Below are positions 3,714 to 39,030 of a stretch of DNA of 64,000 bases, piece by piece. The first letter of the stretch is position 1, and every line of letters begins with the position of its first letter. Origin of the DNA: Phocaeicola dorei (GTDB lineage: Bacteria > Bacteroidota > Bacteroidia > Bacteroidales > Bacteroidaceae). Below the pieces are notes generated by a model, which was given only the letters and a program-made list of their open reading frames with translations, was not told the origin of the DNA and searched no databases. A program made the position numbers and the translations under genes. The stretch is taken from positions 1,891,501-1,955,500 of the forward strand of contig NZ_CP046176.1 in assembly GCF_013009555.1 (NCBI RefSeq), in the 5' to 3' direction.

Positions 3714-3754
3714 ACCTTTTCCCTCATGTTCTTGGTATAAGAGCTTTAGTGGAA

Positions 3755-3840
3755 AAAGTTAGATATGTTCGTGAGGCAAGTAAGATATCTTATTTGCTCC
3801 ACGAACATATCTAACTTTGTCCGCGAAGATATCTTACTTT
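3755..3840. repeat. Nearly perfect 64-bp palindrome plus an adjacent related unit
   Basis: Positions 3755-3773 and 3800-3818 are perfect 19-nt inverted copies. The centre, 3777-3796, is itself an almost perfect palindrome around aagatatctt, so 3755-3818 can fold as one long hairpin. A further related unit with gaagatatcttac follows at 3825-3838. Read on the minus strand the block looks like three to four 22-23-nt units, each with a taagatatctt or ttagatatgtt core. It lies between the acyltransferase gene (stop at 3847) and the HTH-repeat gene (start at 3713). It could be an RNA hairpin or processing site, a terminator, or an operator array for the neighbouring multi-HTH protein. Confidence 0.8.
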
Positions 3841-3846
3841 TTTTGT

Positions 3847-20139: not shown

Positions 20140-22551
20140 TCAGGATTTCTTTTTGAACAATCGTTTCCAGCTTGATTCGGAACCATCCACATAACCGTAG
20201 CCATATCCGTAACCGTAGCCGTATCCTCCGTATCCGCTTGTTTTTACTATAGCACCGTTAAGTACTAACGACATATTGTTCAATTGTCCGCTACGGTATA
20301 TTTTTTCCAACTCCGGCAACATGCGGCGGTCTAGCTTGCCAACCCGTACCACGAAGATGGTCAAGTCGGCTATGCGGTTGGTGATGGCGGCATCGGCCAC
20401 TACTCCTACAGGCACATTGTCGACAAAGATATAGTCATAACGGTTACGCAGTTCGGCAATCATCACTTCCAATTGTTCGCTGAGCAATAGCTCTGATGGG
20501 TTGGGTGCGATGGGACCGGCCGGAATGAAATCTAGGTTTTCACAGATTTCGTTGTGCTTGATGATTTCATCCGTCGTGGCCTTGCCTGCCAGGAAGGAGG
20601 TCATTCCTTTTTCTTCTGTATGAAGGCGGGTATGTGAAGTCAAAGTCCCTTTACGGATATCCATGTCAATCAGGATGACTTTCTTGTCGGTTTGCGCGAA
20701 ACTGGCCGCCAGATTGCTGGATACGTATGTCTTGCCGGCACCCGGTCCGAACGAACTGAAAGTGACGACTTGCATGTTCTTTGACTTGACACGCATAAAA
20801 TCCATATTGGTGCGTATTATACGGAAGGCTTCCGATACAATGTCACGCCCCTGGGCACGGACAGCGATGCCATGCGCTGTTTTTTTATTCTCTATCTTCC
20901 TTTTGGATGAATCCTTGGGTATTTCGCCTAAGAAAGGAACGGTTACAGCATCCTCGATGTCCTTGCGGTTGCGTATGCGGGTATCGAAGAACAGGAACAA
21001 TAGCAGGACAATTGCCGGCAGGGCGATTCCTTTCATGATACCTGCCATGATCATGCTGCGTCCGTTGGGAGAAATCGGAGTATCCCCTCCTCCGGCAGGG
21101 TCGAGTACACGGGCGTCGGTTTCGGTGGTGGCCTGGCCCAGCGCATTTTCTTCACGTTTGTTCAATAGATAGAGGTAAAGTTCCTCTTTGATGCGTTGCT
21201 GACGTTCGATAGAAAGCATCTGTTGCTGTTGTCTGGGTATGTTGGTCACCCGCCACTGGGCTTCTCCGGCCCTGCTTCGGGCCTCGTTCAGTTTCACATC
21301 GATGCTGACAATCATGTTGTCGATGGCCCGGATGATATTCTGTCGCATGGCAATCAGATTCTTGTTCAGTTCCTGGACGATGGGGTTTTTGTCACTGCTT
21401 CCTTCTATCAGTTTGTCCCGTTTCAACTTGTTGGCGTTGTAGGCCGCTATCTGGGTTTCAATGTTGATGTCGGCTATGCCGGTGTTTGAAGGGATAAGCT
21501 CAGTCTCTTTGGATGGGTCCACTAGGTAGCCCTTGATGTAGCGTGCCATGCGTGCCTGCAATTCCAGTTCCTGAGTGGTCGAGCTGTACTGCCGTTTGTC
21601 TGACATGGACATGGAAGCGGCCGAACCGATATCAATAATATCATTGTTTTGTTTGTAAGACTGAAGTTCGTTTTCCACGCCTCCTAGTTCTTTTTCGATG
21701 ATGACCAAACGCTCGTTGATGAAGTTGGAGGTATTGATGGCTATCTGGTTCTTATCTTTGATAGTCTCTTCATTATACACTGTAATCAGCATATTGAGTA
21801 CATCTTCGGCACGGGCGGTGGAGTAATCACGGAGTGACAGGTAGAGGATGGAGGCATCATTCTCGGCCTGACTGATGTTCAGGTTGCTTCTGAACAGGCT
21901 GGCCATTGTGTCCGTACTCTGCCGGCGTATCGTAATTGGTGTATTGAACCACTTGTCTGTATAATATAAGGTGGGTGAGACCACTATTTTTCCTATGGGC
22001 GATTGGATGGTGTCACCCAGATTGGCTGTTAGCGTTATACTTGTGGCGTCTGTCGAGAAATCGGATAACCGGACTTGCTTCCTGTTCAGGATTCTGACTG
22101 TCAGGCTGAAATCAAGATGATCCTCTTCTTCCGGGAATGAAACCTTGACAGGGGCTTGCGTATAAAGTTCCTCCTCACGCAAGTCATCCATGATGAGGTA
22201 GCATACATTGGCGTGAAGACGGTTCACCACATCGCGCATGAGTTTGTGTGACTGGAATTGCAGGATCTCATTGGATACATTGGTATATGAATAGGTGTTA
22301 AAACGGTCCAGCCCGCGACCGATGTTGTTTGAATAGGCGTCCTTTATCATGACGGTGGCTGACCGTGAATAGATAAAGGGAAGTTTGGCATATTGATACC
22401 ATGCATATCCGCCGAACAGACTGACCGACAATACAAACCAGTACCATTTGGACAACAGGTACATGATGATGTCAACGGGGTTGATATTGAATCCTCCCCC
22501 GCTTAAGGTCTTATCTCCCGACATATCTTTTTGTTCACTCATTCTTATCAT
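20140..22551 (-). CDS. Wzc-like chain-length determinant / tyrosine autokinase
   Basis: An 803-residue inner-membrane protein. It has an N-terminal Wzz domain with a first membrane segment near residues 36-52, a long periplasmic coiled-coil region, a second membrane segment near 510-530, and a cytoplasmic BY-kinase domain with SSFGPGAGKTYVSS (Walker A) and VILIDMDIRKG (Walker A'). The tail is a Gly-Tyr repeat (GGYGYGYGYG) that provides the phosphorylated tyrosines. It pairs with the Wza-like protein encoded 12 nt upstream and the PHP phosphatase downstream. An in-frame ATG nine bases further in (22542) is an alternative start. Confidence 0.92.
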   Translation of the reverse strand: MIRMSEQKDMSGDKTLSGGGFNINPVDIIMYLLSKWYWFVLSVSLFGGYAWYQYAKLPFIYSRSATVMIKDAYSNNIGRGLDRFNTYSYTNVSNEILQFQSHKLMRDVVNRLHANVCYLIMDDLREEELYTQAPVKVSFPEEEDHLDFSLTVRILNRKQVRLSDFSTDATSITLTANLGDTIQSPIGKIVVSPTLYYTDKWFNTPITIRRQSTDTMASLFRSNLNISQAENDASILYLSLRDYSTARAEDVLNMLITVYNEETIKDKNQIAINTSNFINERLVIIEKELGGVENELQSYKQNNDIIDIGSAASMSMSDKRQYSSTTQELELQARMARYIKGYLVDPSKETELIPSNTGIADINIETQIAAYNANKLKRDKLIEGSSDKNPIVQELNKNLIAMRQNIIRAIDNMIVSIDVKLNEARSRAGEAQWRVTNIPRQQQQMLSIERQQRIKEELYLYLLNKREENALGQATTETDARVLDPAGGGDTPISPNGRSMIMAGIMKGIALPAIVLLLFLFFDTRIRNRKDIEDAVTVPFLGEIPKDSSKRKIENKKTAHGIAVRAQGRDIVSEAFRIIRTNMDFMRVKSKNMQVVTFSSFGPGAGKTYVSSNLAASFAQTDKKVILIDMDIRKGTLTSHTRLHTEEKGMTSFLAGKATTDEIIKHNEICENLDFIPAGPIAPNPSELLLSEQLEVMIAELRNRYDYIFVDNVPVGVVADAAITNRIADLTIFVVRVGKLDRRMLPELEKIYRSGQLNNMSLVLNGAIVKTSGYGGYGYGYGYGYGYVDGSESSWKRLFKKKS

Positions 22552-22563
22552 GTCGTTTCTTTT

Positions 22564-23373
22564 TTATTTAGTAGTCAGCAATACCAGCGAGGTGATTGTG
22601 GTGATGAAGGACAGGATCATACTCCATGTGCTCAGTTTTCTCTGGGCTTGTTCGGTGGCCTTCATGTTGGTAGGTTCTACGTAGACAATGTCATTCTGTT
22701 GCAGGTAATAGTAAGGCGACGTGAAGATGTCTTTGCTGCGGATGTCGTGGAACAGGATTCGTCGCTTGTTCCCATATTCGCGGATGACGGCGATACGGTC
22801 CAGACGGGATCGGGGGGTCAGGTCTCCAGCCATGGCAAGAGCCTCTAAAAGAGTGATGCGGTCGCCTTTCACTTCAAAGGTTCCTACATGTCCAACTTCT
22901 CCTAGCACGGAGAATTTGAAGTTCAAGAAATTGACGGTGACCATAGGATCTTTCAGCAATTCTTCGTTGATCAGTCGTTTTTTTATCAGTTCGGTTAATT
23001 GTCGGCGGGTCAGTCCTTCCACATGCAGTTGTCCCAGCACAGGAAAGTCTATATTCCCGTTGATATCCACTAAATAACCTTTTTCTTTTTCATCACTTAA
23101 TACCCCCACTTCATTGTTGGAAATGCTTCCGTCTGCTTCTACAGAATAGCTTCTGCTTCCGGACATATTGAAAGGCAGGGACAGTTCTGGGTTTTTGCTG
23201 TTCACAATAATACTCAATCTGTCATCCCTATGGATGATGGCTTCATATTTTTGAACCATAGGATATTCCTGTAGTTCATCCATATCTTGTAAATAGACAA
23301 AATCTTTGCGTGAAGCGCACGAACTAAAAATGATTATTGCCAACAGACAGGCCAGTTTGATTGTTTTATCCAT
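22564..23373 (-). CDS. Wza-like polysaccharide export lipoprotein
   Basis: A 269-residue protein. The signal peptide ends in the lipobox FSSC with Cys19, so it is an outer-membrane lipoprotein. A polysaccharide export domain (IIHRDDRLSIIVNSKNPEL) and SLBB-type segments (GQLHVEGLTRRQLTELI and GDLTPRSR) follow. A C-terminal hydrophobic segment (WSMILSFITTITSLVLL) is predicted to span a membrane, as in Wza proteins. It would form the outer-membrane exit for the capsule and contact the Wzc-like protein encoded next. Confidence 0.92.
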   Translation of the reverse strand: MDKTIKLACLLAIIIFSSCASRKDFVYLQDMDELQEYPMVQKYEAIIHRDDRLSIIVNSKNPELSLPFNMSGSRSYSVEADGSISNNEVGVLSDEKEKGYLVDINGNIDFPVLGQLHVEGLTRRQLTELIKKRLINEELLKDPMVTVNFLNFKFSVLGEVGHVGTFEVKGDRITLLEALAMAGDLTPRSRLDRIAVIREYGNKRRILFHDIRSKDIFTSPYYYLQQNDIVYVEPTNMKATEQAQRKLSTWSMILSFITTITSLVLLTTK

Positions 23374-23394: not shown

Positions 23395-25083
23395 TTATTC
23401 CTTTATATGAATCACTTGGTCACATCGTTCCATCAGTCGTGAATCGTGTGTCACAAATATTAATGTGTTATTCTTTCCCCATTGCAACAAATTGTCCATG
23501 AGGTGTGTGGTGGTCTCGGTGTCAAGTGCCGATGATGCTTCATCAAACAGCCAGATCCGCCCGGGACGCAACAGTGCGCGGGCTATTGCAATCCGTTGGG
23601 CTTGTCCTTCAGACAAGCCATATCCATGTTCCCCTATCTTGGTATCTAGTCCTTCCGGCAGACTGAACACAAATTCAGCACAGGCCAGCCGGATGACTTT
23701 ATGCAGAGCCTCTTCGTCTGCTCCCGGACTACCCAGCCATAAATTCTCCCGGATGGTACCGCTCAGCAACGTATTTCCTTGGGGCACATAGACGAAGTTG
23801 ATGCGTAAATCGGGGGTCACACTGAGTGTCCGTCCGTCATCAGTTGTCAAATCGATGCGTCCCTTTTCCGGATAAACCAAAGCCAGTATCAGCCGGATAA
23901 TGGTCGTTTTTCCTGTTCCGGTAGGTCCGGCTATGGCGGTGGAACTTCCCGGATGAAAGGCAGCTGTAAACCGGTCGAGTACCGGCTGTCCCTCTTCATA
24001 GCCAAAAGACACTTTCCGAAAGTTCAGTGTCAGTGGTTGGTCTATGTAGACCGGGTGTTCGTCCGGTTCTACATCTTCAAAGAGGGCCATTAACCGTTCC
24101 ACGGAGGTCCATCCCCGTATCAGACTGGGAGGGATGGATATTAACCCTAAAAAAGGTCCCTGTACCTGTCCGACCAGTTGAAGAAAGGCTGTCATTGTTC
24201 CGAATGTTATCTCGTGGTTATGCAGTTGGAAAATACCCCAAAGGAATGCACATAAGTACCCTCCTCCAAATGTAAATCCCATGACCCCTTGCGTAAAAGT
24301 GGAAAATTTGATTTGTTCCATTCCCAATTTGAACAACTTCTCTTGTGTTTCATGTAATTTCTGTTTCCGGTAGTTGGTGGCTCCGAGCGAGCGGACTAGA
24401 ATCCGTTTGGACAGATTTTCTTGCATGACGGTACCCATCTCGCTGTTCATCTTTTTTTGGGCACAGCTCAGTTCCCGGACCTTTCTGAAATAAATCTTTG
24501 ACAATAAAACAAGAGGGGTGACTCCCAGTATGAACCAAGCTAAACGCGCGTCAAGAATCCACAAGTAGATAAAAGAGCTTGCCAATTGCAAGCCGGTAAC
24601 CAGCAGGTTGGGTAGAATGCCCATTCCCATTCCCAACACTTCGGAAGCGTCACTGCTGATACGGGTCAGCAGGTCGCCTGTGTGCCATTTCCCTGCTCCT
24701 TTCCATGAACACATCATTAGGGCGTCGGACAGCGAATTTTGCATGCGGATACTGATGCGCATGTTGATCTTGCCAAAAATCCAGGGAGATACAAGTTTTA
24801 TCCCCATACCCAGCAGGAAGGATAAGGCTACTATTGTGGCTACCAGGTAAATATTCCCTTCCTGTGCTCCGGTAGCTACATCGATGATCCATTTGGACAT
24901 GGCCACATTGACCAATGACATGACCACTCCGAAAATACCCGAAAAGATAGAGAAGGTGATGAGCCAATGGTATCCTTCTGTTACCTGCATAACCCATTTG
25001 AAAGCTTTCCATCCTAACTGACATGTATTGCTCAGATTCTCCCGTGTGAGCTTCTGCAAAAACTTTTTCAGCAATTCTTTCAT
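23395..25083 (-). CDS. ABC exporter with fused membrane and ATPase domains
   Basis: A 562-residue type 1 exporter half-transporter. Six membrane segments lie in residues about 45-320; the ATPase has Walker A GPTGTGKTT, signature LSEGQ and Walker B IWLFDEAS with a following H-loop (VTHDSR). No C39 peptidase domain is present. The frame is open up to 25218, but ATG 25083 (MKELLKKFLQKL) gives a 4-nt overlap with the stop of the nucleotidyltransferase gene and the usual N-terminus. Its position at the end of the peptide-modification genes suggests that it exports their product, as the D protein does in lasso-peptide clusters; a role in glycolipid flipping cannot be excluded. Confidence 0.85.
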   Translation of the reverse strand: MKELLKKFLQKLTRENLSNTCQLGWKAFKWVMQVTEGYHWLITFSIFSGIFGVVMSLVNVAMSKWIIDVATGAQEGNIYLVATIVALSFLLGMGIKLVSPWIFGKINMRISIRMQNSLSDALMMCSWKGAGKWHTGDLLTRISSDASEVLGMGMGILPNLLVTGLQLASSFIYLWILDARLAWFILGVTPLVLLSKIYFRKVRELSCAQKKMNSEMGTVMQENLSKRILVRSLGATNYRKQKLHETQEKLFKLGMEQIKFSTFTQGVMGFTFGGGYLCAFLWGIFQLHNHEITFGTMTAFLQLVGQVQGPFLGLISIPPSLIRGWTSVERLMALFEDVEPDEHPVYIDQPLTLNFRKVSFGYEEGQPVLDRFTAAFHPGSSTAIAGPTGTGKTTIIRLILALVYPEKGRIDLTTDDGRTLSVTPDLRINFVYVPQGNTLLSGTIRENLWLGSPGADEEALHKVIRLACAEFVFSLPEGLDTKIGEHGYGLSEGQAQRIAIARALLRPGRIWLFDEASSALDTETTTHLMDNLLQWGKNNTLIFVTHDSRLMERCDQVIHIKE

Positions 25084-26162
25084 TTCTTTTTTATCATTTC
25101 CTTGAAACGTAAGAGGGCTAATCCGGCCAGCCACCAGAAAGTTTCGTCGAAAGCATAACCTAACGATAAGTGCATTTTGTGAAAGATCCGCTTCAACGTG
25201 TATCGTTTGTTCGCCCATTTCCCGGTGGGACGTTCACCGTAACGTTCGTCTCCATGTCCAAAATTGCCACTTTCCCAAATCTCTTGCATTAACTTGTCCG
25301 GACAGAGACTGGTACTGAATGGTAAAAGGTCGGCCGGCACGCCAAGATATTTTATCAATAGGGCATAAAGTAACCGGTTCCACCGGTGAATGTGCCATTT
25401 GCGACAGATACACTCTAATTCGTTTTTGTTTGTAACAGAATGTAATGCGTTAAAAGCCATGGCTATATCACACAATTGTCGTAGTCCGATCCCTTCATTG
25501 ATAAGATGCTTCAATATGTGGGTGGAAAGTAATAGATGATTCGCTTCGTTCGGAAGTTTGCCTTGGCTGTTGGTAAAGACCCCCGCTTCCCATTGGCGGA
25601 TTTCTTTTTGGAGGAAAGGGTTGTGCAACTCTATCAGCCTGCTGTGATGTTCAATCAGAACTCTGTTTATCAGACAGGAAGCCTCACCATTGGTTCCTCT
25701 TTTTACCGGTAATCCTAATTTTTCCATCCGTTGGTTGGCTTGTTCGGTTTGTGTCTTGTTTCCGAACCACAGGTCGATGTCTCCGGCTATGCGATGTTCC
25801 GGATGAGGGTAGAAGTCAGCTGTCCCTATCCCTTTTAGCAGCAGGAAAGGGATAGAAGGTGATTGTACATAAATCTGTTGGAGGGCTTTAATCGTTTCCC
25901 GGTGTTGCCGGTTCACCCGTTCCAAGGTGTCAACTTCCACCATCCAGCCAAGCAATACCTTCCGGGGAGGTACGGCTTCAGTCGGCAACAGGCGGATGCC
26001 ATCGTAAATAATGCCTTGTACGGTTTGTTTTCTTGCCATGCTGTGAATTTCATTCCATTCCTTTTCATCTAGAGGAAAAAGGGCGGAACAGTCTTCCTGC
26101 CGGTCCCACAGTCCTTGCCTTAGCAAAAGCATGAAAGCCTTTTGTAATGGGGCTGAGATCAT
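25080..26162 (-). CDS. Nucleotidyltransferase family protein (NTP_transf_5-like)
   Basis: A 360-residue protein of the uncharacterised nucleotidyltransferase family found in peptide-modification clusters. The nucleotidyltransferase motif is visible as LLKGIGTADFYP followed by AGDIDLWF, giving the DxD pair that binds metal, and LIELHNPF later supplies another acidic position. The substrate is unknown; related proteins occur in lasso-peptide and other RiPP loci. It is cytoplasmic. It overlaps the ABC exporter gene by 4 nt and begins 9 nt after the short PqqD gene, so the three are co-transcribed. Confidence 0.78.
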   Translation of the reverse strand: MISAPLQKAFMLLLRQGLWDRQEDCSALFPLDEKEWNEIHSMARKQTVQGIIYDGIRLLPTEAVPPRKVLLGWMVEVDTLERVNRQHRETIKALQQIYVQSPSIPFLLLKGIGTADFYPHPEHRIAGDIDLWFGNKTQTEQANQRMEKLGLPVKRGTNGEASCLINRVLIEHHSRLIELHNPFLQKEIRQWEAGVFTNSQGKLPNEANHLLLSTHILKHLINEGIGLRQLCDIAMAFNALHSVTNKNELECICRKWHIHRWNRLLYALLIKYLGVPADLLPFSTSLCPDKLMQEIWESGNFGHGDERYGERPTGKWANKRYTLKRIFHKMHLSLGYAFDETFWWLAGLALLRFKEMIKKK

Positions 26163-26171
26163 CTTTTTGTC

Positions 26172-26441
26172 TTATTCTATGGCTAACCCAGTTTCTAACC
26201 ATTGTCGGCACAGCTCGTTGGCATCGTTTCGGGCTGTATCTTTATTTACTTCATATTCATTGCACAGCAGTGCTCCGGCTTCATCTACCGTGAATTCCTT
26301 GTTTTCCAATTGTTTCCATAACCAGGCGGCTGTTTCATTCAAGGAATAGACCTGTGCCATATCCATGGTTTCAGAAAACGGATTGACAATCATATATTCT
26401 CCACCTACTTGGCGAAGAATTAAATTAGAATTGAGTCTCAT
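26172..26441 (-). CDS. PqqD-like peptide-binding protein
   Basis: An 89-residue PqqD family protein. It has the short beta-strand start LILRQVGGEYMIVNP, the central LNETAAWLWKQLE helix and the DEAGALLCNEYEVNKDTARNDA segment that define the RiPP recognition element. PqqD proteins hold the leader of a precursor peptide and present it to radical SAM or other modifying enzymes. It lies at the end of a pair of related genes, separated from the other by a 236-bp structured gap, and 9 nt before the nucleotidyltransferase gene. Confidence 0.85.
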   Translation of the reverse strand: MRLNSNLILRQVGGEYMIVNPFSETMDMAQVYSLNETAAWLWKQLENKEFTVDEAGALLCNEYEVNKDTARNDANELCRQWLETGLAIE

Positions 26442-26480
26442 TGTCTTTATATTATTGCATTATCCTATTTATAGTTAAAA

Positions 26481-26568
26481 TTACATCGACCTTCACAGGC
26501 AGATGTAATGGGGAATAAAATGTAAGTTCATTCTATTATCCGCTGATAACATAGGGTCTTGAACTTAC
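26481..26568 (-). other. Two hairpins in the gap between the two PqqD genes
   Basis: The 236-bp gap 26442-26677 contains two inverted repeats. One pairs ttacatc (26481-26487) with gatgtaa (26502-26508). The other pairs gtaagttca (26522-26530) with tgaacttac (26560-26568), and its loop can continue the stem with tatc/gata and ctat/atag. No T-run follows on the minus strand, so simple termination is not clear. An RNA-processing or translation-control role is possible. Confidence 0.55.
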
Positions 26569-26573
26569 CTGAT

Positions 26574-26654
26574 CTAACATTTTTTACAGATCCGGCGCTT
26601 CTCGCGAAGAAAACGAATCTCTCTTCTAACATTTCTTATTGTATTGTTTGTCAT
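26574..26654 (-). CDS. Possible 26-residue basic peptide with two cysteines
   Basis: A short frame starting at ATG 26654, just 23 nt below the stop of the upstream PqqD gene, encodes 26 residues that are rich in Arg and Lys and end in RRICKKC. It lies in the largest gap of the peptide-modification island. No convincing ribosome-binding site can be seen, and a frame of this length arises easily by chance. It could be a small precursor, a leader peptide or noise. I list it because short products are easily missed in such loci. Confidence 0.2.
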   Translation of the reverse strand: MTNNTIRNVRREIRFLREKRRICKKC

Positions 26655-26677
26655 ATCTGAATTGAACAGATTACTGT

Positions 26678-26959
26678 TTACCAGTTTATACCTGTGGGAC
26701 GGATCATGCCGGCTTGCAGCAGTTGCATGATAAATCCTGCGGCATCTTGCGATGCGGTGTCTTTATCCACTTCGTATTCCTCCAGAATCAACAGTACTAG
26801 ATGGTTGAAGCTTTCTGCTTCTTCGATATGCTCCCAGATAAATTCTCCGGTTTCGGTCAGGGTGACCATTCCGTTGAACTCTCGGGCGGTCTGTCCGGAA
26901 GGAACCAGTACGATTTCTCCGGCTATGTTTCGTTTGATAAATTCTTTGGTTCTTTTCAT
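26678..26959 (-). CDS. PqqD-like peptide-binding protein
   Basis: A 93-residue second member of the PqqD family in the island. It shows RNIAGEIVLVPSGQTAREFNG, LTETGEFIWEHIEEA and the closing LILEEYEVDKDTASQDA segment. Its sequence is related to the PqqD at 26172 but clearly different, so the two may serve the two radical SAM enzymes or the two precursor candidates. The start overlaps the stop of the S26-like peptidase gene by 4 nt (26956-26959), so the two are translationally coupled. Confidence 0.85.
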   Translation of the reverse strand: MKRTKEFIKRNIAGEIVLVPSGQTAREFNGMVTLTETGEFIWEHIEEAESFNHLVLLILEEYEVDKDTASQDAAGFIMQLLQAGMIRPTGINW

Positions 26960-27396
26960 CTTTTGAAAAAACGATATGTTTTAATGATGGTCCTGCGTAA
27001 AGGAATTATGTTCGGCCATATGTGGGCGAAGAATTTCCACTGGAAATCTTCTGGAACTATCCATTTCCCTTTTCGCTTCACCTTGATAATGATGGCGAAA
27101 ATCTGTTCTCTTTGAATTGGACCTTCGATGACAGTCTGGGCGTCACCGATAAGATAATATTCTTCATTTTTAACATTATAAATACGGTGCATGACATATT
27201 CACCGTTGCTTCGCTGATAGAACACCATATCTCCTTTCCGAAGTTCACCGGAGGGGCTTTTCAGGTAGATGTGGTCTCTTGCGTGGATCAGGAATGGAGC
27301 CATGCTGCTGCCCGAGATGATCATGCTCACCTGCTTTCCTTCCTCAATGAGGGTACGCAGCATGGATATATATTCTTTCGTATCGACAGTCTTCAT
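26956..27396 (-). CDS. S24/S26 signal-peptidase-like protein
   Basis: A 146-residue protein with the S26 fold motifs SGSSMAPF (nucleophile Ser31 before Met32), LRKGDMVFYQ and VMHRIYNVKNEEYYLIGDAQ. In this subfamily a His before Arg (VMHRI) may replace the usual general base Lys. There is no clear N-terminal membrane anchor; a weakly hydrophobic segment lies near residues 120-135. In RiPP loci such proteins are candidates for leader removal. It lies 18 nt after the HprK-like gene and overlaps the PqqD gene. Confidence 0.75.
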   Translation of the reverse strand: MKTVDTKEYISMLRTLIEEGKQVSMIISGSSMAPFLIHARDHIYLKSPSGELRKGDMVFYQRSNGEYVMHRIYNVKNEEYYLIGDAQTVIEGPIQREQIFAIIIKVKRKGKWIVPEDFQWKFFAHIWPNIIPLRRTIIKTYRFFKR

Positions 27397-27414
27397 AATG
27401 GGGCGTATTTCACA

Positions 27415-28290
27415 TTATCGGATAATTTCCAGTTTGGTCAGATACCTGTGCAGGGTGAAGGCTGCTTCCGGATTCATGTTGCATGCATAGGTGCTGATGC
27501 TTGTCTGTCTGGTCAAAACCTGCAGATCGTCGAGTGCTTTGCCGGTGAGCTTTGGATTCCACCAGTTGATTGTAACCTGCGAGCAGAGAGCTTTGAAATG
27601 CTTCATGGCTGTCTGGGGACGGATGGTGTTATCAGATGCCTGTTCGATGAATACAATGGCCTCCAACGGGCGGCGTTCATTGTGACAGATACCGCTGGAA
27701 CCGCATACAGGCCATCCCGTTATCTCGTAGTCGCCGTTTGGAAGTGGACAGAGCAGGGCACGGTCGCCATTGAGTACCTGGGTGCCGGGAATATGCCGGC
27801 ACCACAGGTTGGCATGCGTCGATTTGCCAATGCCGCTAGGACCACTGAATAAGATGGCTTGCCCACGATAATCCAGAAAAGTACAATGTAGTATGTAACA
27901 TCCCTGGACAGATAAAGGACGTTCCAGGCACAGGCAGGAAATGAACAGGGTATCTGTTTGCAGTTCTCTTTTCAGACCTTCGATGAAATAGATGTTGGCA
28001 TCTCTTTCGTTTCTTTCCTGATAGAGAGCATAGCAGGCATTCAGGTTTCCTACAGCCAGCAGGCGTGTTTCTTGTTCTTCCTTCCGGAAAACTACGATGT
28101 CGTTGCGTTGGAATGTGATCTGCCAGTCGTTGGACGGCAAAGGCAGACGGTTGACAAAATAGAATGTATAGTACCGGTCCGCTTCTTTGGTAGCGGGTTT
28201 ATGGTCGAGAAACAAACGGCTGTTAACAGGAATCTCCTGTTCTGTCACTCCTGACAATTCAATCGTTAGCGGGCCGATATTCAGTCTCAC
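27415..28290 (-). CDS. HPr kinase/PEP carboxykinase-like ATP-binding protein
   Basis: A 291-residue protein related to HprK. The P-loop GPSGIGKST is near residue 172, preceded by a beta-rich N-terminal half, and followed by LNGDRALL and ITGWPVCGSSG, which correspond to the acidic metal site and the phosphate-handling loop of the family. Related proteins accompany lasso-peptide clusters, where one was shown to phosphorylate the precursor's C-terminal Ser; here the target is unknown. It starts 12 nt after the radical SAM gene at 28303 stops. Confidence 0.78.
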   Translation of the reverse strand: MRLNIGPLTIELSGVTEQEIPVNSRLFLDHKPATKEADRYYTFYFVNRLPLPSNDWQITFQRNDIVVFRKEEQETRLLAVGNLNACYALYQERNERDANIYFIEGLKRELQTDTLFISCLCLERPLSVQGCYILHCTFLDYRGQAILFSGPSGIGKSTHANLWCRHIPGTQVLNGDRALLCPLPNGDYEITGWPVCGSSGICHNERRPLEAIVFIEQASDNTIRPQTAMKHFKALCSQVTINWWNPKLTGKALDDLQVLTRQTSISTYACNMNPEAAFTLHRYLTKLEIIR

Positions 28291-28302
28291 AATCTTCAGT
28301 TT

Positions 28303-29409
28303 TTAATGTATTACGGGGGGATAATTCGTAATGATCCGTTCTTTGGCTTTCGCCATCTGGCAAAGATAGTCCATGCTTCCGGTGATTGTTTTTTCACAGT
28401 GTGCGGCGGCATAGCATACGTTGCATACGGGACGAAGGTGGCAACCCTCGCATTCGGTATGGGATACCAGTTCCTTGGCTTCTTCTAAAAGTTGTTGCCA
28501 TGCAGTTGTCATCGGAATCTTTTTCAGGTCAACGGCCGGTTGATCCAGCATCACACAGGGGGTGAGGATGCCTTGCCAGTTGATCCAGCATGAACTCTTG
28601 GCAGCTCTGCACTCCAAAGAGCAGGCTCGTGTTCCTTCCACATGGGCAAGCGTATATTTCAAGTCGTGCATGTATCGTGCCATGTCATTCCCTTTTTTGT
28701 ACTCCATATATTGCATCTCGATGCGGGCCGCCTCGTCGGCATCCAGTCTTTCAGTTAGAATGTTACGCAGACTTCCGCATTCGGGGCGTGAGAGAGGAAA
28801 CATGTATGAGTTTACTTCTGCCGGAATGTCCAGATGCTGGGCCAGACGGATGATCTCGTCGTAATCTTTTTCATTCTTTCGTACGATACTTACGTTCAGT
28901 TTCACATCAATGTCTGCCTTTTTCAACCGTTTCAGGGCTTCCATGCACAGGGTGTATCCTTGCGGATTGTGGCACAAGCGTCCGTAAGTTTCTCTGCTGT
29001 CTCCATACAGGGTGACGTTTATCCGCCGCGGCTTGTGGGTCTGCAAGATGCGTACCATTTCGTTGTCGATGAGTGTGCCGTTCGTATTGAGAGTCAGGAT
29101 GAATCCCATTTCGCGCAGCCGGGTGTACAGCTCCTTGAAGTGTGGATAGAGCATCGGTTCACCTCCGGTGAGAAGGATGAAGAGTGTACCCATGTCTTGA
29201 AGTTGTTCTGCCCAGTCGAGCCATTGTTGCAAAGGCGATAAACCTCCGTGCCGTTCCACCACGCTGCGTTCGGTGCGTATGAAGCACATGTCGCAGTTGA
29301 GCGTACAGGTGGGAGTCAGCTCGAAGTTGGTAGTGATCGGGACACGGCTCTGATTGGCTTTGTCCACCAATGCCCGTTCTAAAAGGTTGGCATCGTGAAG
29401 ATGATCCAT
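28303..29409 (-). CDS. Radical SAM/SPASM peptide-modifying enzyme
   Basis: A 368-residue protein. The radical SAM cluster motif CxxxCxxC is CTLNCDMC (residues 32-39), followed by LLTGGEPMLYP for SAM binding and TLNTNGTLI. The C-terminal SPASM domain has many Cys (CRAAKSSC, ILTPCVML, CEGCHLRPVCNVCYA and a final CQMAKA), enough for two auxiliary 4Fe-4S clusters. Such enzymes abstract hydrogen from precursor peptides to form thioether, C-C or other bonds. It is about half identical by eye to its neighbour at 29445. It is likely to act on one of the precursor candidates encoded upstream, with a PqqD protein as adaptor. Confidence 0.88.
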   Translation of the reverse strand: MDHLHDANLLERALVDKANQSRVPITTNFELTPTCTLNCDMCFIRTERSVVERHGGLSPLQQWLDWAEQLQDMGTLFILLTGGEPMLYPHFKELYTRLREMGFILTLNTNGTLIDNEMVRILQTHKPRRINVTLYGDSRETYGRLCHNPQGYTLCMEALKRLKKADIDVKLNVSIVRKNEKDYDEIIRLAQHLDIPAEVNSYMFPLSRPECGSLRNILTERLDADEAARIEMQYMEYKKGNDMARYMHDLKYTLAHVEGTRACSLECRAAKSSCWINWQGILTPCVMLDQPAVDLKKIPMTTAWQQLLEEAKELVSHTECEGCHLRPVCNVCYAAAHCEKTITGSMDYLCQMAKAKERIITNYPPVIH

Positions 29410-29444
29410 AACTTGGAATGTATATGTATTTATGAGAAAAGTCT

Positions 29445-30548
29445 TTATAGACTTCCTTTCATTTGTTTCTTTTTACTTTTTGCAATGCGGCAAAGGTAGC
29501 CGATGCCGCCGCATTGCCCTTTTTCATTGCGGGCATTGGCATAGCAGACATCACAGATAGAGCGTAAGGTACAACCTGCGCATTCTTTATGGAACGGAAG
29601 TTGTTCGCATTTGGTTACTATTTGTTTCCAGGCATCGCTTACGGTTGTGGAAAGTAGCGAAACGGCTGGTGTTTCCATATCGACGCACGGAGTCATGACG
29701 CCCTGCCAGTTGATCCATGCGGAACTTTTACCTGCCCGGCAGGCAAGTCCGATGCCTTCAGCAGGTACGGGAGATTCTCCACGTTCCAATTGCTGGAGGA
29801 CATGAGTGGCGTATGATGTGTATTCCTTGCCATATTTATGTTCCAGTGCCTCAACCTCGGCATGTGCCACTTCATCCGGTACGGGGCGGCACGTATCAAG
29901 GGGTAGCGTGGTGGCGCATCCCGGCCGTGAATAGACTGAAATGTAACTGTTGGTCAGCATAGGTAAGTCCCATTCGTCAGCTAGTTCCAGCATTTGCCGG
30001 TGTTCTTTTATATTTTGTCGTGTCAAGGTGAGGTTCAGTTTGGTATCTATGCCATATTCTTTTAATCGTTTCAGTCCTTCCAGGCAACGGTCGAAACCGT
30101 TTGTCGCGTGGCACAGATTGAGATAAGTTCCGTTGGTCACACCATATAACGAGACATTCACCCTCCGGGGTTTCAAACGTTGAAACAGACGTACTGTTTC
30201 GTCATCTATCAAAGTCGCGTTTGTATTGATGGTGAGGATGAATCCTTTTTCTTTCAGCCGGATATATAATTCTTTGAAATCAGGATAGAGTAGGGGCTCG
30301 CCTCCTGTCAGTAAGATGAAGAGGGTTCCTATTTCCTGTAGCTGGTCGGCAATGTGCAGCCATTCCTCTATGCTCCGTAATCCTCCTCTTTTCTCGGCTT
30401 GTGACTTCTCCATGCGGATATAGCACATATCACAACGGAAATTGCACGTCGGTGTCAATTCAATAGTGGCATTGATCGGAGTACGGTTTGCCGTCGCTTT
30501 GTTCACCAATGCCCGTTCCACAGGGTTTATGTCTTGCAGGGATTCCAC
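29445..30548 (-). CDS. Radical SAM/SPASM peptide-modifying enzyme, paralogue
   Basis: A 367-residue paralogue of the preceding enzyme. It has CNFRCDMC (residues 32-39), LLTGGEPLLYPDF, TINTNATLIDD and a SPASM tail with GLACRAGKSSAW, VMTPCVDM, CAGCTLRSICDVCYA and a final CRIAKS. Compared with the first enzyme, the CRA segment lacks one Cys (SSAW instead of SSCW), so the auxiliary cluster ligation or specificity may differ. It is separated from the other by 35 nt and lies 455 bp after the nearer precursor candidate. Confidence 0.88.
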   Translation of the reverse strand: MESLQDINPVERALVNKATANRTPINATIELTPTCNFRCDMCYIRMEKSQAEKRGGLRSIEEWLHIADQLQEIGTLFILLTGGEPLLYPDFKELYIRLKEKGFILTINTNATLIDDETVRLFQRLKPRRVNVSLYGVTNGTYLNLCHATNGFDRCLEGLKRLKEYGIDTKLNLTLTRQNIKEHRQMLELADEWDLPMLTNSYISVYSRPGCATTLPLDTCRPVPDEVAHAEVEALEHKYGKEYTSYATHVLQQLERGESPVPAEGIGLACRAGKSSAWINWQGVMTPCVDMETPAVSLLSTTVSDAWKQIVTKCEQLPFHKECAGCTLRSICDVCYANARNEKGQCGGIGYLCRIAKSKKKQMKGSL

Positions 30549-31003
30549 TAGGATAATGATTTTTTTTCAAAGAAAAGTTTTTGAGTCTAGTGTATTGGAT
30601 TTCATTTACTTCCGTGGTCGTATATGTTACCGAAATTTGTCTCGATGGAAAATATATAGATTATCTTCCCTTTTTGAAGCCCAACAAAAGTTAATACTTA
30701 ATTTAGAGCATATCCTTTTTATAAGGCACCAGAATTGGCATCTCACAAAAAGATATTATCAAATTCGATTGATTTTTAACTATTGGCATACAACCAAGTC
30801 TATATTTTACGATGATAGACCCAAAGATAGGGAAAGTAGAATCTTTCAAGGTCTTCATTGCTTTGCATAATTCGTAAATTTTGATTCGCAGCGAAGATAG
30901 ATATTTTAGAACCCTAATTTGAGAGGTTTACAGTATAGACTTTACTTTTAAGGTCCAAGTCTATACTGTTATTTGATGCGAATTTCATAAATAGGGGAAT
31001 GTC
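30549..31003 (-). other. 455-bp gap before the radical SAM genes; one perfect hairpin
   Basis: No convincing gene. A perfect 13-bp stem pairs acagtatagactt (30930-30942) with aagtctatactgt (30957-30969) around a 14-nt loop; it lies 35 nt after the precursor stop at 31004 and may be an attenuator or partial terminator that lets the small precursor message be more abundant than the enzyme message. No T-run follows. A 51-codon frame (30703-30858, minus) exists, but I cannot support it as a gene. Confidence 0.5.
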
Positions 31004-31399
31004 TTAAGAGTGGTTAGGACGACCTGGTATTTCTTCAACAGCAGATTTGATTTCACCCCAACCTTGATGATTGTATTCTCCAGTGTTATTTACTGTATCA
31101 TAGCTAGTCCACTTGATGCTTCTAATCTTGTCACCTACTTTTGCGTCACTTAAATCGAATCCATTCCAATCAATATTGAGAATAGGTATACCCCATTTTT
31201 CTATAGTCCCTTCGTGCCCTGTAGCATGGATACCATTAATATCTACATAGGTTGTAGCGCATGGTTTTCCATGATTGTTTGTATTGTTTTCTCCATAATG
31301 ACAATGAAATAGTGCTTTAAAGTTATAGCATGCAGCTACATATTCGTTCGGAATGAACTCTTCGCTAATAAGCATCGGTTTTTGATAATCTTTCTTCAT
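31004..31399 (-). CDS. Small protein with leader-like N-terminus, candidate radical SAM substrate (A)
   Basis: A 131-residue protein. The first 23 residues share the pattern YxKPxLxSExFxPxxxVAAC with the neighbouring protein B, while the rest differs. There is no hydrophobic signal peptide, although VAAC looks like a lipobox. The downstream part is rich in Gly, Asn, His and Trp and has several Cys early (YNFKALFHC and KPCAT). A shared N-terminus with divergent C-terminal parts, beside radical SAM and PqqD genes, is what precursor peptides look like. At about 108 residues after VAAC it is long for a core, so a small modified protein is also possible. Confidence 0.65.
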   Translation of the reverse strand: MKKDYQKPMLISEEFIPNEYVAACYNFKALFHCHYGENNTNNHGKPCATTYVDINGIHATGHEGTIEKWGIPILNIDWNGFDLSDAKVGDKIRSIKWTSYDTVNNTGEYNHQGWGEIKSAVEEIPGRPNHS

Positions 31400-31739
31400 A
31401 CTATTTTTTTCTTTTTTGATTCCTGTTTCGGAGGAAAGGAAATCAGAAAAGGTTTGAAGCGAAATAGTGATTGGGTCCCGGAGAAACTCCGGTGTGAAAG
31501 AATTTTGAAATAATTGATATATTGCGATTTACCATCTACAATATGATCCTTTCATTTTCCTTTTCATTACACTAATTCTTTGCAGCTCAAACGATATTCT
31601 GACTTAGTTCCTCCAGTAGTCTGATCATATATTATTTAATCTCTATTTCTATTAATGAGAATCAATAAATTTATCTAAGCGTTAGGAATCAAGATTGAAA
31701 TAAATGAATAAGATTGCGATTTACTGTTTTATTTACCGA
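31400..31739 (-). other. 340-bp leader of protein A with a hairpin and a repeated element
   Basis: No gene seen. Near protein A a perfect hairpin pairs ccggag (31478-31483) with ctccgg (31487-31492) around aaa. Two related segments containing attgcgatttac occur at 31521-31532 and 31713-31724, both preceded on the plus strand by a tgaaataa-type stretch. A third, more distant copy is at about 32248-32260 before protein B. These may be remnants of gene duplication, with a lost third precursor gene between them, or shared regulatory elements. Confidence 0.5.
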
Positions 31740-32129
31740 TTAGGATTTAGCAGTTTCCCAAGAATTTATGTCAAGGTTCTTGGTGGCGTGACCCTCCCAG
31801 CCCTTTTGTCCTCTCCAAACAATGACTAATTCACTTTTCTCAAATTTCTGATTATGGTTGTAATCAACATATCCCCAATAAAAACCAGATTGGGCTTCGG
31901 CTTCATGAAATGCACTACATGGATGATAGTTTCCTAGCCAAATACCTCGATTTCCTGTAGTGGGTTGTGAACCAGAAGCAGGCTTATCTCTAAAATAATA
32001 CAACGTTCCTCTTGGTGCATCACAAGTAAACTTATAAACAGTTCCACTATCTCCACAAGCAGCCACATGCGTTTGCGGCACGAAAGCCTCGCTTTTCAGC
32101 TCCGGCTTTGTATAAACTTTCTTTGTCAT
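31740..32129 (-). CDS. Small protein with leader-like N-terminus, candidate radical SAM substrate (B)
   Basis: A 129-residue protein. The N-terminus MTKKVYTKPELKSEAFVPQ then THVAAC matches protein A position by position (Y, KP, L, SE, F, P, VAAC). The remainder has Cys in FTCDAP and YHPCSAF, several Gly and Trp (RGIWLGNYHP, FYWGYVDYNH) and a polar end. There is no signal peptide. The gene is monocistronic-like within the operon, with 300-bp gaps on either side, as is common for precursor genes that are regulated separately. The nature of any modification is unknown. Confidence 0.65.
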   Translation of the reverse strand: MTKKVYTKPELKSEAFVPQTHVAACGDSGTVYKFTCDAPRGTLYYFRDKPASGSQPTTGNRGIWLGNYHPCSAFHEAEAQSGFYWGYVDYNHNQKFEKSELVIVWRGQKGWEGHATKNLDINSWETAKS

Positions 32130-32429: not shown

Positions 32430-33575
32430 CTATCTCATACTCCGTATCGCATCCGCTACACGCATCACATCCTCGCACGTCATCATTGATCCCGAAGGCA
32501 GACAGAGTCCACAGTTGAACAGGGCTTCCGATACTCCGTTGACGTAGGTGGGGGAGGATGAGAATACGGGTTGCAGGTGTAACGGTTTCCAAAGCGGACG
32601 GGTCTCGATGTCGGCTTTTGCCAAGTGCTGCATCAGCTGCAAGGCGCTGAAACTGGTTTCGTTACTGTCCACTTTAATTGTAGTCAGCCAATAATTGGGT
32701 AGAAATATGGTAGATTTCTTGGGTTCTACCACAGTGATACCCGGAAGTCCTGCCAGCAGCTCGGTGTATAGCCGATGGATGGCACGGCGGTGTGCGATAT
32801 GGTTGTCCACTACACGCATCTGCCCGCGTCCGATACCAGCCGACACATTGCTGAGCCGGTAATTGTATCCGATCTGTTCGTGCTGGTACCAGGGGAACGG
32901 TTCACGTGCCTGGGTAGCATAGAACTTCACTCTCTGGGCTTCCTCTTCCGTATGGCATAATAAGGCGCCGCCACCGCTGGTGGTGATCATCTTGTTGCCG
33001 TTAAAAGAGAAAATCCCATATTGACCGAAGGTCCCGCAATAGCGTCCGTTGTAAACGGCCCCCATTGCTTCGGCAGCGTCTTCCACCACGGGGATGCCGT
33101 AGCGGGAGGCAATGTCACAGATTTCGTTCATGCGGGCAGGCGTGCCGTAAAGGTGTACTGGAAGAATGGCTTTGGGCTTGAGGCCGGTCTGTTTCATACG
33201 GTCGCAGATGGCCTGTTCAAGCAGTATAGGATCCATATTCCAAGTATCAGGCTCACTGTCCACGAAAATGGGGGTAGCACCCTGATAACAAATGGGGTTG
33301 GCTGACGCAGCAAAGGTGAAACTTTGGCAGATCACTTCGTCTCCTTTGCTTACGCCCAGCATGATCAATGCCAAGTGGATGGCTGCCGTACCTGATGATA
33401 ATGCCACGGCGTGTACCTCCTGGTCGCAATGCGTTGAAAGCCACTGTGACAAGTCATGCTCGAAGCCATCTACATTCGGCCCTAAGGGAACTACCCAATT
33501 GGTTTCGAAAGCCTCACGGACGAACTCTTGTTCGGATCCGCCCATGTGTGCCAATGACAACCAAATCTTACTCAT
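32430..33575 (-). CDS. DegT/DnrJ/EryC1/StrS-type sugar aminotransferase (PglE-like)
   Basis: A 381-residue PLP enzyme. It starts with KIWLSLAHMGGSEQEFV, then has VALSSGTAAIHLAL for phosphate binding, DAAEAMGA and the Schiff-base lysine in SFNGNKMITTSGGG. The N-terminal pattern and length are those of PglE/PseC-like enzymes, which convert a UDP-4-keto-6-deoxy-HexNAc to the 4-amino sugar. The PglF-type dehydratase at 36037 would make its substrate. It acts in the cytoplasm and provides the amino sugar for the capsule repeat. It starts 20 nt after the OmpA-family gene. Confidence 0.87.
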   Translation of the reverse strand: MSKIWLSLAHMGGSEQEFVREAFETNWVVPLGPNVDGFEHDLSQWLSTHCDQEVHAVALSSGTAAIHLALIMLGVSKGDEVICQSFTFAASANPICYQGATPIFVDSEPDTWNMDPILLEQAICDRMKQTGLKPKAILPVHLYGTPARMNEICDIASRYGIPVVEDAAEAMGAVYNGRYCGTFGQYGIFSFNGNKMITTSGGGALLCHTEEEAQRVKFYATQAREPFPWYQHEQIGYNYRLSNVSAGIGRGQMRVVDNHIAHRRAIHRLYTELLAGLPGITVVEPKKSTIFLPNYWLTTIKVDSNETSFSALQLMQHLAKADIETRPLWKPLHLQPVFSSSPTYVNGVSEALFNCGLCLPSGSMMTCEDVMRVADAIRSMR

Positions 33576-38001: not shown

Positions 38002-38547
38002 TTAAGGTATTTTTTTCAAGAAGGCTTGCGGAATATAAGAGGTGGCTACAGCACATACACCATGGACTGTTATAATAAGCCGGTGGTTCTTTTTAATGCG
38101 GCAGATATACCCTTCTGCACCTTTGAATGTTCCGTCAATGACTTTTACGTGGTCTCCTTGATAAAATTTAGGATTATCTGTGTCAAAATATTCTAGACCT
38201 TTTTCGCCTGACGAGGTAACGAGCATGAAGATGTTCATCTCTCTCTCGGGAATGGCTAAAGGAATTTTTTTAAAATCTATTTGCCGAGTATAGAGAATTA
38301 CTTTATCGGTCAAGATCTTCTGTATCTCTTTTGCTATGTAAGTTTCCGAATGGAAGAAAAGCAATGAATTGATAACTGGTTTTCGTACGTTTTTTTTTGT
38401 TCCATCTTGTTTTAAAACCTTTACGGTTTCGCAGGGAATATAACATTTTATCTTTTTCTTCAAAAGAAGTTCTTCAATGGCAAAAACCTTATTATAGAAT
38501 ACTTTTAATGCAAACCAGTGTTTTTTCGAATTATTGTTTGATGTCAT
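38002..38547 (-). CDS. upxY: UpxY-family capsule transcription antiterminator (NusG-like)
   Basis: A 181-residue NusG-like protein starting MTSNNNSKKHWFALKVFYNK. The N-terminal NGN domain contains WFALKVFYNKV and KCYIPCETVKVL; the C-terminal KOW region reads GDHVKVIDGTFKGAEGYI. UpxY proteins of Bacteroides act on the untranslated leader of their own capsule operon to prevent early termination. The frame is open to 38610, but the extra 21 codons cover a hairpin (38569-38591), so I prefer ATG 38547. It is the first gene of the operon and faces the invertible promoter region. Confidence 0.9.
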   Translation of the reverse strand: MTSNNNSKKHWFALKVFYNKVFAIEELLLKKKIKCYIPCETVKVLKQDGTKKNVRKPVINSLLFFHSETYIAKEIQKILTDKVILYTRQIDFKKIPLAIPEREMNIFMLVTSSGEKGLEYFDTDNPKFYQGDHVKVIDGTFKGAEGYICRIKKNHRLIITVHGVCAVATSYIPQAFLKKIP

Positions 38548-38565
38548 TTTTATCTTTAATACTTT

Positions 38566-38591
38566 AAAAATGGAAGGACATTCCTTCCATT
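38566..38591 (-). terminator. Terminator-like hairpin in the capsule leader, candidate UpxY target
   Basis: A perfect 10-bp stem pairs aatggaagga (38569-38578) with tccttccatt (38582-38591) around a 3-nt loop. On the minus strand the stem is followed by a short run of T (five counting the stem end). It lies about 20 nt before the upxY start, inside the leader that a promoter in the invertible segment would produce. This is the right place and shape for the early termination that UpxY proteins overcome, but function is inferred. Confidence 0.6.
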
Positions 38592-38717
38592 CCTGCATGT
38601 TATATAACACACAGTAATCAGAGTTAAACTAACTTTTTTCTATAATTTGAAAACTTTAGCACGCAGCATTTTTCCTGATCCAAGAAAAATAAACTGTAAC
38701 TCCAAATTCATACTGTC

Positions 38718-38738
38718 TCTAAGTAAGAGATGGTATAA
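38718..38738. repeat. Left inverted repeat (IRL) of the invertible promoter segment
   Basis: The 21-nt sequence tctaagtaagagatggtataa is matched by the reverse complement of 39010-39030 at 20 of 21 positions. It lies on the upxY side, about 170 nt before the upxY start. Paired sites like this beside a tyrosine recombinase gene are the recombination sites of capsule promoter inversion in Bacteroides. Confidence 0.85.
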
Positions 38739-39009
38739 TATTATAATGTGAATATAATCAGCATGATAGGATATACCTACCAAGCTGATTTTTCAAACTT
38801 TTGTAACTTGTCTTTAGCCCTTCGTTTTTTATTTTTAACAACTTATTTTTTATTTTTATTTTGTAATGTTATTGTATTTAACAATTTTTCTATCATAGTA
38901 TCGTAAAGTATTAAATATTAGACACAAGCATAATTATTATATATAGATAGAGAAAAAAAATGTTATCTATTTTGTTAATCAATAAAAAACAAGTATCTTT
39001 GCATCGAAT
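38739..39009. other. Invertible segment with capsule promoter, OFF orientation in this sequence
   Basis: A 271-bp AT-rich segment between 21-nt inverted repeats, with no gene. Its only promoter matching the Bacteroides consensus is at 38971-39001 on the plus strand, which points away from upxY. If the segment inverts, that promoter moves to about 38747-38777 on the minus strand and would drive upxY and the whole operon after a leader of about 190 nt. The adjacent tyrosine recombinase is the likely catalyst. I found no equally good promoter facing upxY in the present orientation. Confidence 0.8.
38971..39001 (+). promoter_or_regulatory. Consensus Bacteroides promoter inside the invertible segment
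   Basis: The -33 element tttg is at 38971-38974 and the -7 element tatctttg (TAnnTTTG) at 38994-39001, separated by 19 nt, the standard spacing for the Bacteroides primary sigma factor. Transcription would start near 39008, at the inner edge of the right repeat, and run to the right, antisense to the recombinase gene. Confidence 0.85.
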
Positions 39010-39030
39010 TTATACCGTCTCTTACTTAGA
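39010..39030. repeat. Right inverted repeat (IRR) of the invertible promoter segment
   Basis: The sequence ttataccgtctcttacttaga pairs with the left repeat with one mismatch (g for a at the eighth base). It ends 1 nt before the stop codon of the recombinase gene, so inversion does not disturb that gene. Confidence 0.85.

Follow-up and report, generated by a model that had tools for sequence, protein, structure and literature searches.

A ten-gene island in a capsule operon of Phocaeicola dorei

The 64,000-nucleotide stretch analysed here (the window; positions 1,891,501 to 1,955,500 of contig NZ_CP046176.1, the single contig of the 5.63 Mb genome of Phocaeicola dorei) carries, within a capsule operon on its minus strand, an island of ten genes for two small proteins (sm1 and sm2), two radical S-adenosylmethionine (rSAM)/SPASM enzymes and six further proteins. 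An initial annotation, made from the letters of the window, had named the functions of these ten genes. All the open reading frames (ORFs) are present and, for all but the two small proteins, Pfam and NCBIfam matches agree with that naming, the kinase being called from weak profile matches (ScmC TIGR04249, 5e-7; HPr(Ser) kinase TIGR00679, 0.04) together with a motif (H135, P-loop K156 and D176) found in 57 of 57 aligned sequences. In the order of the minus strand, and with RRE standing for the recognition element of ribosomally synthesized and post-translationally modified peptides (RiPPs), the genes are as follows.

31740..32129, minus strand: sm1, putative precursor of 129 residues with a YxxP leader (about residues 1-25), a beta domain and a C-terminal serine (alignments A1 and A4)
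31004..31399, minus strand: sm2, putative precursor of a second type, 131 residues, ending in PNHS and with the same kind of leader (alignment A5)
29445..30548, minus strand: rSAM1, radical SAM/SPASM enzyme (PF04055, 1.3e-31), with its nearest relative beside an sm1-type gene in locus L072
28303..29409, minus strand: rSAM2, radical SAM/SPASM enzyme (PF04055, 4.7e-24), 48% identical to rSAM1
27415..28290, minus strand: HprK-like kinase, proposed to phosphorylate the C-terminal serine (weak profile matches plus the motif kept in relatives)
26956..27396, minus strand: soluble S26 peptidase of SipW/archaeal type, proposed leader peptidase (Ser31/His70)
26678..26959, minus strand: PqqDa, discrete RRE (PF05402, 7.5e-16; lasso PqqD NF033536, 6.5e-10, below cut-off)
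26172..26441, minus strand: PqqDb, second discrete RRE (PF05402, 2.5e-15)
25080..26162, minus strand: NTP_transf_5 nucleotidyltransferase (PF14907, 5e-34), proposed PsmN/LppN-like role
23395..25083, minus strand: MsbA-like ATP-binding cassette (ABC) exporter (PF00664 and PF00005; best NCBIfam match MsbA TIGR02203, below cut-off)

Small proteins and their radical SAM partners

As the initial annotation had held, the two small proteins share a leader: sm1 and sm2 align with each other, and neither matched any Pfam or NCBIfam family. The AlphaFold2 model of sm1 (predicted local distance difference test, pLDDT, 85) depicts a beta domain at residues 30-128 preceded by a leader of lower confidence, whereas that of sm2 reached a pLDDT of 66; a structure comparison found no solved structure similar to the predicted fold of sm1. 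Relatives were collected by a contig scan with an alignment of the rSAM enzymes, and the 75 loci considered are the best of 506 candidate stretches. Record titles assign 21 of them to Bacteroidota and 54 to other groups, almost always Bacillota; L082, in the first set, and L137, in the second, were placed by hand. Loci L073, L074, L079 and L083 lie on the same contigs as L032, L031, L033 and L034, respectively; L076, with scores identical to those of L074, may be the same sequence and is still counted; and L117 is counted as lacking the kinase, its over-long rSAM frame (650 aa) being one that may conceal another gene. A whole-profile search of these loci, seeded by A1, yielded 104 unique precursors, and 102 of them, of both types, carry a [YWF]xxP leader motif. 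The sm1 and sm2 types form separate alignments (A4 and A5), and in both the cysteine at the leader end is invariant, with more conserved Cys, His and Trp beyond it.

The enzymes sort with the substrate types. For 60 rSAM genes with an sm1- or sm2-type gene at most 1.2 kb upstream, the nearest labelled enzyme from another locus had the same small-protein label in 58, and the rSAM tree required four label changes, compared with at least 14 in 2000 shuffles. Shared ancestry inflates these counts, yet the split also holds within single loci, since in the six loci with one enzyme of each label each enzyme is closer to one from another locus than to its own neighbour. The window's rSAM1 groups with the sm1-adjacent enzyme of L072; the substrate of rSAM2 is assigned by elimination only, because its labelled neighbours in the tree are split between sm1 and sm2.

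We take the VAAC sequence of the small proteins to fit the lipobox pattern, and its invariant cysteine would suit a reading in which sm1 and sm2 are ordinary lipoproteins and the enzymes serve something else. However, the leaders have no hydrophobic stretch (best 11-residue hydropathy means of 0.92 and 0.58 for the two proteins), the YxxP-type RRE motif is almost universal among the relatives, and rSAM and substrate types co-segregate, so that we regard the lipoprotein explanation as highly improbable. Instead, the rSAM enzymes very likely act on the small proteins as RiPP-type substrates.

A conserved C-terminal serine

In the whole-profile search, 102 of the 104 unique precursors end in serine. 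Because the whole profile might itself select for this residue, a leader-only search was made, seeded by the A1 leaders and run after 20 residues had been cut from the C terminus of every ORF; 98 of the 99 unique precursors that it returned also end in serine. The background in the same loci is 519 of 6336 other ORFs (45-330 aa), or 40 of 888 gene-like ORFs. Two further searches used A4 with its C terminus included. Among 399 Bacteroidaceae genomes, 17 new ORFs were found, of which two were dropped since they ran off the fetched stretch; 14 of the 15 complete ones end in Ser and one in Ser-Ala. Database relatives, which are mutually close, end in Ser in 120 of 120 cases among the matches listed (of 321). 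The residue preceding the final serine varies (K, R, H, A, M, L and others). The invariance of this serine within A4 and A5 is itself no evidence, because both alignments were selected partly by their last residues. There is a second serine of possible interest, in a GDS that follows VAAC in the window's sm1 and in 79 of the same 120 listed relatives, and is absent from the window's sm2; the C-terminal serine is the better conserved of the two.

The island core and its likeness to known systems

The peptidase matches PF00717 (S24/S26, 5e-6) and, below cut-off, the archaeal-type signal peptidase I TIGR02228 (2e-7); Ser31 and His70 are present in 29 of 29 aligned sequences, and no hydrophobic (transmembrane) segment was detected in the window's protein. 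The D-x-D of the nucleotidyltransferase (D128 and D130) is kept in 38 of 39 aligned sequences, with no NCBIfam match for the protein. In Pfam the exporter matched only ABC_membrane, ABC_tran and related ATPase models, and no peptidase domain. Its start had been put at 25218; one near 25083, with an ATG overlapping the preceding stop, is more likely. Spacings had been described as short, and some genes are indeed close, whereas there are gaps of about 300 bp before sm1, 340 bp between sm1 and sm2, 455 bp before rSAM1 and 236 bp between the PqqD genes. The spacers flanking sm1 (window 32430-32129 and 31740-31400) contain, by eye, similar short stretches, which would fit a duplication of the small-protein genes along with their spacers.

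The closest likeness is to the linear polyphosphorylated peptides (LPPs), RiPPs described by Popov et al. (2026) from capsular polysaccharide loci of Bacillota, to which, in the part of the paper available, they are said to be restricted (PMC13381572). LPP clusters encode a SipW-type leader peptidase (SpI), a discrete RRE, an HprK-like kinase, a nucleoside triphosphate (NTP) transferase and an MsbA-like exporter (PMC13381572), and all five core gene kinds are present in the P. dorei island. LPP precursors have 35-200 aa, a YxxP leader, variable C termini and a phosphorylated Ser3 in the core (PMC13381572), while the island encodes a conserved protein ending in a conserved serine, plus rSAM/SPASM enzymes. 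From the LPP leader, YxxPxVLxHQxIxFETxxS, the island retains YxxP without HQxIxFETxxS, and its own leader runs ExFxPNxYVAAC. The words radical, rSAM, SPASM and Bacteroid occur nowhere in the main text of the LPP paper (PMC13381572), and the Pfam scan of the ten island proteins gave no macrolactam cyclase domain. The rSAM/SPASM enzymes set the island apart from a plain LPP member, because they are paired with the precursors and may cross-link them.

In L041, L046 and L060, three capsule loci of Bacteroidaceae that carry HprK, PqqD and PF14907 genes and gave no rSAM match within the 20-kb stretch, a gene after Wzc encodes a YxxP protein of 61-67 aa that has a serine where the leader presumably ends but none at its C terminus (L041:13421-13624, L046:13908-14093 and L060:6154-6351). 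They resemble the LPP design and possibly represent a plain LPP system in Bacteroidaceae capsule loci; no convincing precursor candidate emerged from four similar loci, L040, L049, L050 and L029, the last of which is short. Because the precursors of these rSAM-less loci end otherwise, the C-terminal serine belongs, as far as seen, to the rSAM branch.

Phosphorylated lasso peptides of the paeninodin/pseudomycoidin type provide the second comparison. In the available parts of the sources, the phosphorylations reported before BsfK were all on a C-terminal serine, and PsmN, a nucleotidyltransferase homologue, was needed for the hexoses on the phosphoserine (PMC10368454, PMC9266682). An RRE-motif leader, an HprK-like kinase with a C-terminal serine and a nucleotidyltransferase homologue are also found in the island, the precursor of which differs in being a protein of about 130 residues. 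A plain phosphorylated lasso system was rejected, as Pfam gave no lasso cyclase (C) or B2 protease domain in the ten proteins. By NCBIfam names, the SynChlorMet (Scm) cassette is also similar, with rSAM/SPASM proteins ScmE and ScmF, a PqqD protein ScmD, and ScmC as the best NCBIfam match of the kinase; it was discarded on scores, the best being 29, 18, 75 and 76 bits for ScmC, ScmD, ScmE and ScmF against cut-offs of 125, 100, 400 and 400. Radical SAM RiPP clusters of Bacteroidales were described by Fernandez-Cantos et al. (2023), and in seven of the nine clusters detailed there were C39 peptidase-containing ABC transporter (PCAT) exporters, most precursors having a GG-type leader and several clusters LanC, YcaO or LanM (PMC10352776, in its available part). 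HprK occurs nowhere in that text, and this type was likewise rejected, since no C39 peptidase domain was matched in the island exporter (Pfam). The open-licence PubMed Central literature gave no description of rSAM enzymes with an LPP-type core in capsule loci, which is no proof of absence. The LPP core is already published, but the literature searched, including the main text of the LPP paper as far as searched, gave nothing on its occurrence in Bacteroidota, on accompanying rSAM enzymes, on a folded substrate or on a conserved serine at the C terminus.

Distribution and placement beside capsule genes

The best relative, L072 (a Parabacteroides metagenome-assembled genome, 71% identity), has the same order from UpxY to CpsB, with a single small protein found. 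The order DegT aminotransferase, block, Wza is common to the window, L072, L073, L077, L078, L080 and L121, and Wza lies directly after the last gene of the block in 15 of the 21 Bacteroidota loci. Among fully flanked loci, 25 of the 29 that bear the kinase also have Wza, Wzc, CpsB or a phosphatase-family gene (9 of 10 in Bacteroidota, 16 of 19 in the others), compared with capsule genes in 2 of the 8 without it. The block might have proved to sit mostly away from capsule genes, and these counts speak otherwise. The stronger expectation, that it would always lie between upxY-type genes and Wza/Wzc, goes too far: it fails for L079, L083, L085, L099 and L127, which have the kinase and no capsule export gene in the stretch examined, and for the Bacillota loci, whose neighbours are CpsB and Wzc-like genes, not UpxY and Wza. 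Of the Bacillota loci only L104 was scanned with Pfam, and there CpsB, an immunoglobulin (Ig)-like surface protein, two Wzz/AAA_31-type proteins and LytR-CpsA-Psr come after the block; alongside the block and its capsule genes, L104 thus has the Ig-like protein, a PF16403 match, and also a LuxR/MalT-like regulator (coordinates of regulator and Ig-like protein, 2192-4552 and 15203-16081).

Occurrence is patchy, and many named records carry gut or rumen isolate names. The rSAM subfamily was found in 6 of 61 genomes of the genus (E <=1e-70), and the small protein in at least 11 of 399 Bacteroidaceae genomes and, across the phylum, in at least 1 of 395, the window's own; the last two counts are lower bounds because the A4 searches scored at most 10 candidates per genome.

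This distribution bears on two other explanations. The product might be a secreted bacteriocin or signal RiPP that never contacts the polysaccharide, the capsule operon serving only for co-regulation. The island does encode a dedicated ABC exporter, fully flanked pairs of small protein and rSAM gene without capsule genes or kinase exist (L106, L108, L114, L129 and L136), and LPPs and paeninodins, whose roles are given as unknown in the available text, often lie beside capsule loci without a demonstrated link (PMC13381572). On the other hand, the sm1-type substrates are not variable peptides but domains conserved in two phyla, and the kinase-bearing loci nearly always have capsule genes, so we consider this explanation unlikely, although it is the more serious of the two.

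Alternatively, the small proteins could be regulators or assembly factors of the Wza/Wzc export machine, with cytoplasmic phosphorylation as a signal and no export. HprK proteins have regulatory roles in other settings, and the frequent position of the block directly upstream of Wza/Wzc in Bacteroidota would be in keeping with this. Nevertheless, the genes for RREs, a leader-peptidase-like protein, a nucleotidyltransferase and an ABC exporter suggest a product that is matured and exported, and the HprK-like kinases of RiPP clusters, in the parts of the sources available, phosphorylate precursors (PMC13381572, PMC10368454, PMC9266682); we judge a regulatory role to be improbable.

Some parts of the core also occur elsewhere. 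An HprK-like match was obtained in 240 of 301 Bacteroidaceae genomes, and an S26 gene lies beside the HprK-like gene in 26 of the best 30 HprK loci (window included), mostly without rSAM (L004-L010, L012-L028 and L030); five longer HprK/S26 stretches (L045, L064, L068, L069 and L071) have a gene read as sigma-70 nearby. The P. dorei genome itself has a second S26-HprK-ABC-NTP-PqqD set (C1:3725001-3745000, L052), with no recognisable precursor or rSAM in its 20 kb. Inside the islands of two relatives (L073:5520-7303 and L074:3074-4627) there is either an AAA_21 ATPase plus DUF4276 pair, which resembles an insertion of the defence type, or a 518-aa protein with no Pfam match.

Host operon and promoter switch

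Capsule genes flank the island on both sides, as had been annotated. On the minus strand, UpxY, a CapD-type enzyme (PF02719), two outer-membrane proteins (one with an OmpA match, the other with no Pfam match) and a DegT aminotransferase precede sm1, and the exporter is followed by Wza, Wzc, CpsB, an endo/exonuclease-phosphatase-family protein and an ABC-2 transporter. The features that matter here are the following.

38002..38610, minus strand: UpxY-type NusG-like antiterminator, first gene of the operon (PF02357, 1.6e-9)
32430..33575, minus strand: DegT-type sugar aminotransferase, capsule gene directly upstream of the island (PF01041, 7.7e-97)
22564..23373, minus strand: Wza, capsule export, first gene past the island (PF02563, 2.8e-20)
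20140..22551, minus strand: Wzc, chain-length regulator/kinase (PF13614 and PF13807)
38718..39030: inverted repeat (38718-38738 / 39010-39030) around a Bacteroides-type promoter, TTTG-N19-TATCTTTG, at 38971-39001 on the plus strand

The arms of the repeat, 21 nt long, 95% complementary and 271 nt apart, were the longest among the ten pairs reported, and lie between UpxY and a tyrosine recombinase (integrase) gene. The promoter within them faces away from the operon as assembled (OFF); the strict pattern occurs four times in the whole window, and on the operon strand none was found between 22000 and 40800. We presume that this is the invertible promoter of the capsule operon, caught OFF, which fits the invertible capsule promoters of Bacteroidales. 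The operon is thus probably switchable, and the phase switch that the initial annotation had the island share with the capsule gains support from this arrangement.

Proposed function of the island

We believe it fairly likely that the island represents LPP-type phospho-RiPP machinery in a Bacteroidota form, to which dedicated rSAM/SPASM enzymes have been added, and that its products are exported with the capsule. The initial annotation had proposed a modified peptide or small protein that is made and exported together with the capsule, an idea that the present results support; the LPP-type core, the C-terminal serine and the pairing of enzymes with substrates were not part of it. The PqqD adaptors would bind the YxxP leader of sm1 and sm2, and rSAM1 and rSAM2 would each alter their own small protein within its core of about 100 residues. 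The HprK-like kinase would then phosphorylate the C-terminal serine, a step that we consider likely, and the PF14907 enzyme might attach a sugar or nucleotide to the C-terminal phosphate, which seems possible, with chances somewhat below even. The soluble SipW-like peptidase would cut off the leader near the VAAC motif and the MsbA-like ABC protein would export the product. The sequences themselves show the gene content, its recurrent placement, the leader motif, the conservation of the last serine, the co-segregation of enzymes and substrates, and a promoter enclosed by inverted repeats. We infer phosphorylation, glycosylation and leader cleavage by analogy with the known systems, and an association with the capsule from location only. 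Membership in the operon and the presumed invertible promoter would tie production to that of the capsule, on or in which the product probably acts.

Several observations weigh against this reading. Modification, phosphorylation, export and the capsule link are all steps that we infer. Three precursors (L092, L035 and L166) lack the final serine, and in the available text the LPP and Bsf kinases act on a serine at core position 3 (PMC13381572, PMC10368454, PMC9266682); since the window's sm1 has its GDS after VAAC, the C-terminal serine may be kept for another reason. The island kinase reads NGD at the DD position of BsfK. The PF14907 enzyme is likened to PsmN and LppN by their described role; LppN was inactive when expressed (PMC13381572), and PsmN may nucleotidylate, a host glycosyltransferase then acting (PMC10368454, PMC9266682). 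The set is also incomplete, in the DNA examined, in most relatives, many of whose contigs are cut: S26 is found in 7 of the 21 Bacteroidota loci and 24 of the other 54, the ABC exporter in 6 of 21 and 28 of 54, and the small protein in 12 of 21 and 50 of 54. In addition, the fetched stretch of 17 of the 54 non-Bacteroidota loci shows an rSAM gene, accompanied in 15 by a small-protein gene, but no kinase. Finally, the assembly has the capsule promoter in the OFF orientation.

That the product is joined to the capsule is doubtful, and we put it forward tentatively. The C-terminal phosphoserine could be the covalent attachment point, to which the PF14907 enzyme, or else an operon-encoded glycosyltransferase, might join a sugar or the capsule chain by a phosphodiester, so that the rSAM-modified domain would prime, cap or anchor the capsule; this too is rather unlikely. 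If true, it would mean a protein-polysaccharide conjugate made from a phase-variable operon and common to gut Bacteroidota and Bacillota.

The conserved C-terminal serine reduces the hypothesis to a single-residue question. If it is right, the LPP and paeninodin families, without known roles in the available text (PMC13381572), would gain a testable one, and the island family would offer rSAM enzyme-substrate pairs with folded substrates. A conserved, radical-modified and C-terminally phosphorylated protein from a capsule operon would, moreover, be a new kind of capsule component. Capsules are usually regarded as pure polysaccharide, and those of gut Bacteroidales influence phage susceptibility and immune recognition. 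The presence of related sets beside capsule genes in two phyla suggests that the bacteria concerned may equip their capsules with a modified protein.

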